From: a virus
IMG/VR virus record: IMGVR_UViG_3300024262_006261
Location: 1-55,999 of that record
Length of the DNA stretch: 55,999 nt
Reading direction: 5' to 3' (one strand)
Below are positions 2,415 through 46,685 of this stretch, in pieces (positions within the stretch are counted from its first letter, which is position 1; each line of letters begins with the position of its first letter). Under the pieces are notes generated by a model. It was given only the letters and a program-made list of their open reading frames with translations. It was not told the DNA's origin and did not search any database. The position numbers and the translations under genes are program-made.

Positions 2415-2442
2415 TTGACAATCTCCAATAAAGGTATATAAT
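2415..2442 (+). promoter_or_regulatory. consensus sigma70-type promoter before homing endonuclease
   Basis: TTGACA (2415-2420) and TATAAT (2437-2442) are both perfect consensus hexamers with a 16-base spacer. The predicted start is near 2449-2450, so the transcript begins at the first arm of the RNA structure described next. Host-type RNA polymerase should be able to use it. Confidence 0.75.
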
Positions 2443-2550
2443 AATGGTATGCTATACAGGAATATACAAAAAGCGAACCAGTCAGAGACAGTTCTTAGAC
2501 ATAATAGTCTGCCTGTATAGCAACTCTGACTGGTTCTTATTTTTGGAGAT
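2421..2550 (+). promoter_or_regulatory. possible Shine-Dalgarno-sequestering helix of the homing endonuclease
   Basis: ATCTCCA (2421-2427) is the exact reverse complement of TGGAGAT (2544-2550), which contains the GGAG ribosome-binding site of the endonuclease gene at 2557. The left arm lies in the promoter spacer, upstream of the predicted start. Only read-through transcripts from the upstream operon would carry it and hide the site; transcripts from the local promoter would not. The same logic is established for T4 I-TevI. Seven base pairs alone are modest evidence. Confidence 0.5.
2449..2544 (+). ncRNA. pseudoknotted leader / small RNA with terminator-like 3' end
   Basis: Two perfect complementary pairs interlock. 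TGCTATACAGG (2450-2460) pairs with CCTGTATAGCA (2512-2522), and GAACCAGTCAGAG (2475-2487) pairs with CTCTGACTGGTTC (2524-2536). The order A-B-A'-B' makes a pseudoknot of 11 and 13 base pairs, with a small AGAC/GTCT hairpin (about 2498-2511) in between. The second helix is followed by TTATTTTT, as in an intrinsic terminator. It may be a free RNA of about 95 nt or an attenuating leader of the endonuclease gene 12 bases downstream. No known RNA family is recognised. Confidence 0.65.
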
Positions 2551-2556
2551 ACCATA

Positions 2557-3390
2557 ATGCCAGGTAAGGTTTATATAAAAACAGAAGAAATTAGAAGAAG
2601 AAAAATAAGTGAGGCCCGCAAAGGAACACGCCATTCAGAGGAAACTAAGAGAAAGATAAGTAAAAGTAAAAGAGGAAAACTCAATCATTTTTATGGAAAA
2701 CAACATACAGAACAGTCTAAAAAGAAAATGAGGGAATCTGCAAAAAGAAGACCACCTTGTTCAGAAGAAACAAAAAGGAAATTAGGATTAAAAACAAAGA
2801 ATAGAATATGGACGGAAGAATCAAGAAAGAAATGCAGCATCGCTAAAATAGGAATACTCAATCCTATGTATGGTAAAAAGATGTCAGACGAAGACAAACA
2901 AAAAAGACGGGAATCTAATTTGGGCAAACATTTCCATGTCAAAAGTAAAGAATTGAAAGAGAGAATTAGTAAAACAGGATTAAGACTCTGGCAAAATCCC
3001 GAATATAGAGAAAAACAATTAAAGGCTATATTCAAAGGACTTGATATTAAACCAACCAAACCAGAGAGAAGAATGAGAAATGGTTTGAATAAAATGTTTC
3101 CTGGAGAATATAAATATGTTGGTAATGGTGAGATTTGGATAGCAGGAAAAAATCCTGATTTTATAAATGTAAATGGACAGAAAAAGATTATAGAATTGTT
3201 TGGTAACTTCTGGCACGGAGAAAAATGTAGATTCAAGATATATGGAGATGAATCTTCGAATAAAGAACATGCACAGCAAAGAATAAATCATTTTGCCAAA
3301 TATGGTTATAGAACTTTGATTGTTTGGGAAAGTGAATTAAAGAATATATTTAAATTAAAAAAGAAACTTGTAGAGTTTCAGAAAGGATAA
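2557..3390 (+). CDS. NUMOD3-containing, Vsr-like (EDxHD-type) homing endonuclease
   Basis: This 277-residue basic protein starts PGKVYIKTEE, the usual opening of this family. Residues about 10-125 carry repeated NUMOD3-like DNA-binding modules (ISEARKGTRHSEETKRKIS and relatives). The C-terminal nuclease domain, about 165-270, contains KPTKPERRMRNGL, NPDFINVNGQKKIIELFGNFWH and RINHFAKYGYRTLIVWESEL, matching very-short-patch-repair-like homing endonucleases such as I-Bth0305I. It would cut a specific allele and spread its own gene. GGAG lies 8 bases before the ATG. It is flanked by a truncated and an intact copy of the same nuclease gene and has a paralogue at 53108. Confidence 0.88.
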   Translation: MPGKVYIKTEEIRRRKISEARKGTRHSEETKRKISKSKRGKLNHFYGKQHTEQSKKKMRESAKRRPPCSEETKRKLGLKTKNRIWTEESRKKCSIAKIGILNPMYGKKMSDEDKQKRRESNLGKHFHVKSKELKERISKTGLRLWQNPEYREKQLKAIFKGLDIKPTKPERRMRNGLNKMFPGEYKYVGNGEIWIAGKNPDFINVNGQKKIIELFGNFWHGEKCRFKIYGDESSNKEHAQQRINHFAKYGYRTLIVWESELKNIFKLKKKLVEFQKG

Positions 3391-3391
3391 A

Positions 3392-3976
3392 ATGAAAGGT
3401 TCACATAAAGGAAGTGCATTTGAACGTGATATCTGCAAGCAACTTTCACTCTGGTGGTCCAAAGGTGAGAACGACGATATATTTTGGCGTACTCCAGGTT
3501 CGGGAGCAAGAGCTACAGTAAGAAATAAAAAAAATAAGGAATCAATGGGATTCTCAGATATTCAAGCTACCGACCCTATCGGGCAACCCTTAATAGACCT
3601 TTGTAGCATAGAACTGAAACGGGGCTATTCCAAAACTACCTTTGCTGATGTGATAGATAAACTGGACAAATCCAAAGAACAACTGTTTGAATCCTTTGTC
3701 AAACAAGCTACCTCAGATGGAAATCTCTCTGGATGTTTTTCATGGACATTAATAACCAAAAGGGATAGAAGAAAACCTTTGATTTTTACTACTCTATATC
3801 TCTATGAACACTTGAAATCAGTTGGATGTGATTTTAGCGAGACCACTCATACATTTTTATACTTCAAAAGTAAAGAGGGTTATAACTACAAGATTTTTGG
3901 AGCACCTCTAGAAGATTTTCTTAAAATTGTTAAACCTTCGGACATCAAGAAAATCATAGCAAAATGTGGAATATGA
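3392..3976 (+). CDS. PD-(D/E)XK-fold nuclease-like protein
   Basis: This is a 194-residue protein with an N-terminal KGSAFERDICKQLSLWW helix carrying the Glu typical of resolvase- and restriction-like folds, then FSDIQA (Asp) and SIELKRGYSK, an E-x-K motif after a strand. Together these resemble the PD-(D/E)XK active site. Such proteins cut branched or otherwise specific DNA; the exact substrate cannot be read. It begins 2 bases after the homing endonuclease and is the intact relative of the fragment at 2270, so its gene was probably the invasion target. It ends 4 bases before the next gene. Confidence 0.65.
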   Translation: MKGSHKGSAFERDICKQLSLWWSKGENDDIFWRTPGSGARATVRNKKNKESMGFSDIQATDPIGQPLIDLCSIELKRGYSKTTFADVIDKLDKSKEQLFESFVKQATSDGNLSGCFSWTLITKRDRRKPLIFTTLYLYEHLKSVGCDFSETTHTFLYFKSKEGYNYKIFGAPLEDFLKIVKPSDIKKIIAKCGI

Positions 3977-4234: not shown

Positions 4235-4284
4235 GAGTACAACACCTGATATATCTCATCCTCAATAAGGTTAATAATAAGTAG
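4231..4284 (+). CDS. possible 17-aa leader peptide
   Basis: ATG at 4231 overlaps the preceding stop (ATGA) and opens a frame encoding MRVQHLIYLILNKVNNK, ending in TAG at 4282-4284. That stop lies inside the first pairing arm of the folded RNA described next. A terminating ribosome would therefore cover or disturb that fold, an arrangement seen in leader-peptide control. It may equally be a chance short frame. Confidence 0.3.
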   Translation: MRVQHLIYLILNKVNNK

Positions 4285-4353
4285 GCACGTGGCAACGATA
4301 CACTATGGGTCATGTATCGGGGGTAGGTTTGCCTATTTACCTACCCCAGCCAC
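4281..4353 (+). ncRNA. three-way-junction RNA element with pseudoknot, before Rad50 N-half
   Basis: GTGGC (4289-4293) pairs with GCCAC (4349-4353) and encloses two adjacent perfect hairpins: CGATACA/TGTATCG (4296-4302 and 4313-4319) and GGGGTAGGT/ACCTACCCC (4320-4328 and 4339-4347), each with a 10-base loop. GTAGGCA (4281-4287) can pair with TGCCTAT in the second loop (4330-4336; one G-U), giving a pseudoknot. The two loops could alternatively kiss (ATGGGT with GCCTAT). It ends 20 bases before the next start codon. A cis-regulatory element or processing structure is likely; the class is unknown. Confidence 0.65.
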
Positions 4354-4373
4354 AATATCATAGGAATATAACG

Positions 4374-6554: not shown

Positions 6555-6788
6555 ATGCTAGTGCTTAGTAGACATGTAGGACAATCAATAATCATAGGTC
6601 GAGGGCATAAGACAATAAAAGTCAAGATAATCGATATTCAAAAGGGTACTGCTCGACTCGGAATAGAAGCAGACAAATCCATATCCGTTCATAGAGAAGA
6701 GGTTCTTAAATCAATACAAAGAGGAGAAAAACCAAAATCTCTTATGTCTATAGATTATAAAAGAGGGGAGATTAAAGGAATCAAATGA
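6555..6788 (+). CDS. csrA: CsrA/RsmA-type RNA-binding translational regulator
   Basis: The sequence MLVLSRHVGQSIIIG, then IKVKIIDIQKGTARLGIEAD and SVHREEVLKSI, follows the CsrA fold throughout. It keeps Leu4 and Arg6 and the VHREE segment with Arg47 (the equivalent of Arg44), which contact GGA in RNA loops. It has 77 residues, longer at the C-terminus than the roughly 61 of E. coli CsrA. A strong AAGGGAG precedes the ATG. Its stop overlaps the start of the Rad50 C-half as ATGA, so the two are coupled. A phage CsrA could repress or redirect host mRNAs, or control phage leaders. Confidence 0.95.
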   Translation: MLVLSRHVGQSIIIGRGHKTIKVKIIDIQKGTARLGIEADKSISVHREEVLKSIQRGEKPKSLMSIDYKRGEIKGIK

Positions 6789-46656: not shown

Positions 46657-46685
46657 ATTATAGTACCTTTTTTCACTTTTGTCAA
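46657..46685 (-). promoter_or_regulatory. consensus sigma70-type promoter of the structured RNA
   Basis: On the minus strand TTGACA (46680-46685) and TATAAT (46657-46662) are both perfect, with a 17-base spacer. The start would fall near 46650. It lies within the late block yet drives no obvious protein gene, supporting an RNA product. Confidence 0.75.

Follow-up and report, generated by a model that had tools for sequence, protein, structure and literature searches.

A structured leader precedes a phage endonuclease gene

The window, by which we mean the whole 55,999-nucleotide stretch of IMG/VR virus record IMGVR_UViG_3300024262_006261 that was analyzed, harbors a homing-endonuclease-like gene. 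Directly upstream (2415–2556) lies a leader comprising a promoter, two interlocked helices (P1 and P2) that begin where the RNA is predicted to start, a T-tract, and the ribosome site GGAG (Table 1). These parts had been proposed in a sequence-only reading of the locus, most of which was borne out: the −35/−10 pair is perfect, the 11-bp and 13-bp helices are uninterrupted, the last helix runs into the T-tract and GGAG, and the open reading frame that follows carries NUMOD3 stretches and a Vsr-like end. The arm complementary to GGAG is indeed located in the promoter spacer, but it pairs over 8 bp rather than the 7 bp originally given.

The helices interlock in the order P1a-P2a-P1b-P2b (a and b being the 5' and 3' arms), with a single base separating P1b and P2b. 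Their interlocked score of 24 was never reached in 6000 dinucleotide-preserving shuffles, the best of which scored 19, and the fold of the leader is stable (z about −4). A second compact interlocked element is found on the plus strand at 4278–4355, where TAAGTAGGCA/TGCCTATTTA is combined with GGGGTAGGT/ACCTACCCC and two further helices; it immediately precedes the start codon (ATG) of an SbcC-like gene and is not associated with a nuclease.

Besides the promoter at 2415, the window contains one other 12/12 promoter pair, on the minus strand at 46685. It is followed, between tail-region genes, by about 290 nt (46655–46350, minus strand) with a very stable predicted fold (z −6.4) and a GAGTCTTTTTG end. 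This element has no credible Rfam match and is overlapped by a 111-residue open frame; it is possibly a large phage non-coding RNA.

Table 1. Features of the window leader and positions of the related leaders and elements
Feature	Position	Strand	Remarks
Sigma-70 promoter, TTGACA-16-TATAAT	2415..2442	+	12/12 consensus; TTGACA 2415-2420, TATAAT 2437-2442
P0 5' arm, ATCTCCAA	2421..2428	+	within promoter spacer, upstream of predicted transcript start; pairs with ribosome site
ATG at predicted transcript start	2449..2451	+	begins 23-residue leader frame
P1 5' arm	2450..2460	+	pairs with 2512-2522, 11 bp perfect
P2 5' arm	2475..2487	+	pairs with 2524-2536, 13 bp perfect
CAGTTC	2489..2494	+	fits loose CANNTC motif 3' of P2a; by-eye reading of loop sequences
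P3 small hairpin	2496..2511	+	2496-2500/2507-2511; between P2a and P1b
P1 3' arm	2512..2522	+	P1 = 11 bp
P2 3' arm	2524..2536	+	P2 = 13 bp
T-tract 3' of P2	2537..2544	+	possible terminator; overlaps P0 3' arm in part; direct reading
P0 3' arm, TTGGAGAT	2543..2550	+	includes Shine-Dalgarno GGAG (2545-2548); 8 bp with ATCTCCAA
Homing-endonuclease-like gene, 277 aa	2557..3390	+	two NUMOD3 stretches, Vsr-like nuclease end; ATG at 2557
Window leader	2450	+	NUMOD3-Vsr nuclease
L001 leader	2886		relative of window nuclease, 45% identical
L022 leader	1326		NUMOD3-HNH; same element in L003/L004/L362
L337 leader	2548		HNH nuclease
L339 leader	5940	minus	phrog_2340 endonuclease, weakly endonuclease-VII-like too
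L383 leader	2917		HNH/AP2 nuclease
L426 element	5445		same layout, promoter TTGACT/GATAAT; before protein of unknown kind
L423 element	2165	minus	before phrog_419-like protein; start less well placed
L363 element	13465	minus	interlocked helices, T-rich tail, then long hairpin and DNA methylase gene; without clear promoter

The nuclease gene and its leader are flanked by PDDEXK_15 sequences: a 45-residue N-terminal gene fragment (2270–2407) lies 5' of the leader, and the nuclease gene is followed by a complete, divergent copy (3392–3976) that shares 67% identity with the fragment over the length of the latter. This arrangement suggests that the cassette arrived together with flanking DNA of a relative. 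In record G001, a shortened relative of the window nuclease precedes the same PDDEXK gene; a protein search found no viral relatives of the PDDEXK neighbor, although G001 holds one.

Two further genes nearby deserve mention. A lipoprotein-like protein with a dockerin type I domain is encoded at 1670–2257, in the phage replication region, and possibly hints at the host group. At 6555–6788, the phage encodes a CsrA-like protein (PF02599); since CsrA binds GGA motifs near ribosome sites, a link between this protein and the leader is conceivable.

The leader recurs before nuclease genes of four kinds

A detector for the order P1a-P2a-P1b-P2b in which P1b and P2b nearly touch was run on the fetched loci, which amounted to 3.6 Mb by the final pass; the nuclease leaders stood out by a promoter-like box 7–9 nt upstream of P1a and a T-rich stretch downstream of P2b. 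The nine members come from metagenomic virus records (IMG/VR loci), several of them from related phages, and L337 shares a single record, G002, with a copy of the L022 element. Six leaders, that of the window and five others, lie directly 5' of nuclease genes, which are of four kinds: NUMOD3-Vsr, NUMOD3-HNH, HNH/AP2, and endonuclease-VII-like. The promoter layout of the window is seen again in L339, L337, L383, and L001 and is weaker in L022 (TTGTGA) and L426 (TTGACT). A T-rich stretch follows P2 in all nine members, and the ribosome site of the nuclease leaders is found within a few bases of it.

L339, L337, and L383 were found via patterns into which the promoter had been written together with TCTC from the P0 arm, so that promoter quality and P0 are search-enriched in these three leaders; P1 and P2 were part of none of the patterns that found L337 and L383. 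The interlock was absent from about 49 other promoter-pattern matches of the same scan. Two high-scoring detector matches, L178 and L125, were rejected as probably due to chance, their promoter-like box, spacing, or following gene start being unfit.

No leader was found at several relatives of the nuclease (L002, L269, L270, and matches in phage records), and a detector run that included five phage-record relatives did not detect the interlock in them. Comparison of a nuclease profile with bacterial and archaeal genomes gave one match, at which no leader was detected. At the DNA level, the leaders of the window, L022, L001, and L383 gave only short chance matches in phage records, the L339 leader gave no match in phages or plasmids, and two broad DNA patterns yielded no new member by the interlock detector among the matches listed. 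The leader is a family that recurs before nuclease genes and not a one-off, and because other viruses carry it, with its letters rebuilt, before unrelated nuclease genes, the device looks portable.

The two helices of the pseudoknot covary

Since MAFFT misaligned the L337 helices, covariation was judged by cross-pairing the P1 and P2 arms among the nine members. P1 arms pair with their own partners at a mean of −18.0 kcal/mol versus −5.6 with foreign arms, and P2 arms at −20.4 versus −6.8. The best assignment of arms was the identity for both helices, which was reached by 1 in 100,000 random permutations, a frequency close to that at which the identity would itself be drawn by chance. Among the six nuclease leaders, two-sided changes occur in 10 of 19 P1 columns and in 13 of 16 P2 columns; P1 provides fewer independent cases, because this helix is nearly identical in L022 and L339. 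Covariation in homologous leaders, which had been suggested as a check on the structure, is thus found for both helices: judging from the sequences, the arms change their letters from member to member while the pairing is kept. P3 is present in 6/9 members, with changed pairs, and P1b and P2b are at most 1 base apart in seven members and 3 bases apart in the other two. By eye, P1a and P2a are separated by an A-rich loop in most members, and the loop after P2a mostly begins with CANNTC or a sequence near it.

These data bear on several simpler readings. P2 and the T-tract by themselves look like an intrinsic terminator, and P1 alone could protect the 5' end, so the leader might be an ordinary terminator or mRNA-stabilizing stem that forms one helix at a time, the interlock being incidental. 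We regard this as quite improbable given that both helices and the 0–3 base junction are kept in nine divergent members and that shuffles did not reproduce the interlock. Inverted repeats might also act as DNA, for instance as an operator for autorepression by the nuclease: I-TevI binds an operator that overlaps its own promoter, according to PMC2988022. The repeats described here begin at the predicted RNA start and not over the promoter, their arm sequences differ each time, and this layout is shared by genes for four unrelated kinds of nuclease and by non-nuclease genes, making a DNA-level role highly improbable.

A self-standing small RNA gene of ~95 nt, consisting of promoter, pseudoknot, and terminator, would act in trans and be a neighbor of the nuclease by chance. 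The strong promoter, the paired 5' end, and the T-rich stretch that follows P2 throughout the family would suit such a gene, as would the stable fold. However, the ribosome site lies a few bases from the T-tract in the nuclease leaders, and the lack of conservation in the arms argues against base-pairing with a shared target; we therefore consider a separate RNA gene decidedly unlikely.

A predicted lid over the ribosome site

Five of the six nuclease leaders show complementarity between the promoter region and the region of the T-tract, ribosome site, and start codon. Compared with 2000 shuffles each, the resulting P0 duplex has a predicted energy of −11.3 kcal/mol in the window (p 0.0375), −15.3 in L022 (p 0.0035), −20.1 in L339 (p 0), −20.5 in L383 (p 0), and −21.9 in L337 (p 0), where it comprises about 20 bp and extends to the start codon. 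P0 alone is thus marginally significant in the window itself. L001, though it has P1 and P2, reaches −2.0 kcal/mol, no better than shuffles, and the three non-nuclease elements remain at shuffle level (−5.3, −5.9, and −8.3 kcal/mol). The sequence of P0 is fairly conserved, a similarity that may in part reflect common ancestry, and the matrix of P0 cross-pairings is not diagonal; support for P0 therefore comes less from covariation than from complementarity beyond shuffles and from its confinement to the leaders of nuclease genes.

As the P0 5' arm lies upstream of the predicted RNA start, the lid is possible in read-through RNA only. The predicted accessibility of the ribosome site in the five leaders with P0 is 0–0.12 in read-through RNA versus 0.54–0.85 in RNA from the internal promoter, as calculated with a program that is not pseudoknot-aware; no such drop is predicted for L001 or the three non-nuclease elements. 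The arm that had been proposed to hide the ribosome site in read-through RNA alone hence recurs in most of the nuclease leaders, and the comparison supports the putative switch.

Proposed working of the leader

At the level of sequence, the comparison demonstrates the anatomy and recurrence of a promoter, a P1/P2 knot ending in a T-tract near the ribosome site, and P0 complementarity. We consider it probable that these parts make up a portable leader that governs the expression of free-standing endonuclease genes in phages, with P0 as a lid and a pseudoknot. The sigma-70-like promoter would set the start of the RNA at the first base pair of the pseudoknot. When RNA from the neighboring operon reads through, P0 would close around the pseudoknot and shut the ribosome site, so that the nuclease would not be made from these messages. 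RNA from the internal promoter, in contrast, starts 3' of the P0 arm, and it would be translated because the lid cannot close.

The knot may serve as a 5'-end shield, as an attenuator, or as a separate small RNA. Its job is not specific to nucleases, since P1 and P2 also precede non-nuclease genes. The favored role is a combination: with its 5' end paired from about the first nucleotide, the pseudoknot would shield the short message from decay; in read-through RNA it would bring the two P0 arms together; and with the T-tract it would damp output.

The chief rival for the role of the knot is attenuation through the leader frame, in which a ribosome starting at the 5' AUG would melt P1 and P2, keep transcription from terminating at the T-tract, and bring translation to the next gene, while otherwise the pseudoknot-terminator would stop the RNA. 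An ATG is located exactly at the start of P1, which is also the predicted RNA start, in 8/9 members; frame 0 contains 3 stops in 233 codons, where the other two frames contain 17 and 10; and the frame ends 3' of P2 or continues into the gene in 6/8 cases. However, the frame stops within P1b/P2b in the window and in L022, the ATG and stop counts are not independent because the members share ancestry, a conserved leader peptide was not seen among the members, and P0 is left unexplained, so that we judge this mechanism unlikely. A related, broader idea, which we offer tentatively, is that the P1/P2 knot with an AUG at the first RNA base represents a hitherto undescribed type of leader RNA in phages, preceding many kinds of genes, in which translation from the 5'-terminal AUG would decide knot/T-tract termination, and that nucleases adopted it and added the P0 lid.

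Relation to known systems

Rfam 15 contains no covariance model that matches the window at gathering score, and none matches positions 2380–2600 at E values up to 1; at four other leader loci, the sole match is an unrelated one at a distance from the leader. A group I intron around the endonuclease gene was rejected, as no Rfam model, those of intron cores included, matches the whole window at gathering score. Type III toxin–antitoxin systems of the ToxIN kind have the order promoter, pseudoknotted RNA, terminator, and nuclease gene, and thus share their order of parts with the leader. Their tandem-repeat pseudoknots bind one family of RNase toxins, whereas here there is one pseudoknot and the proteins downstream are unrelated DNA-nuclease kinds, matching DNA-endonuclease families and no toxin family; this candidate was rejected as well.

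A closer likeness is offered by the promoter-dependent hiding of ribosome sites in T4. Upstream RNA can hide the ribosome site of I-TevI, and RNA from an adjacent promoter, lacking the 5' arm, frees it; I-TevII, I-TevIII, SegB, and Aeh1 MobE have similar arrangements of promoter and ribosome-site hairpin, as described in PMC2988022. In keeping with this logic, a nuclease-like gene follows immediately in each of the six nuclease leaders, and all of them except L001 have an arm against the ribosome site that falls outside the internal transcript. The echo of I-TevI timing control proposed earlier consequently holds for the logic, whereas the timing is conjectural, the window promoter being a plain sigma-70 consensus and not a late promoter. 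Relative to the T4 systems, the arm here lies inside a sigma-70 promoter instead of a T4 late promoter, the two arms are about 110 nt apart with a conserved pseudoknot between them, and the device is common to at least four nuclease kinds, with the pseudoknot also preceding other genes. Another likeness is seg43(25) of Aeromonas phage 25, which has a very stable stem directly upstream of an uncovered ribosome site (PMC2988022) and so shares a stable structure immediately 5' of a ribosome site that it does not itself cover; that structure is a single hairpin, and the passage on it describes neither interlocked helices nor a promoter-spacer arm for it.

The logic of hiding the ribosome site is therefore already known from I-TevI, SegB, and Aeh1 MobE, while the conserved pseudoknot is new; the literature searched, consisting of open papers, describes no such leader. 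The finding would make promoter-dependent hiding of ribosome sites, known from T4-like phages, a modular device common to unrelated endonuclease families and to different phages, with the addition of a covarying pseudoknot leader RNA not present in the catalogues searched. The nine sequences provide a concrete test set for how selfish nucleases stay silent within the operons they have invaded.
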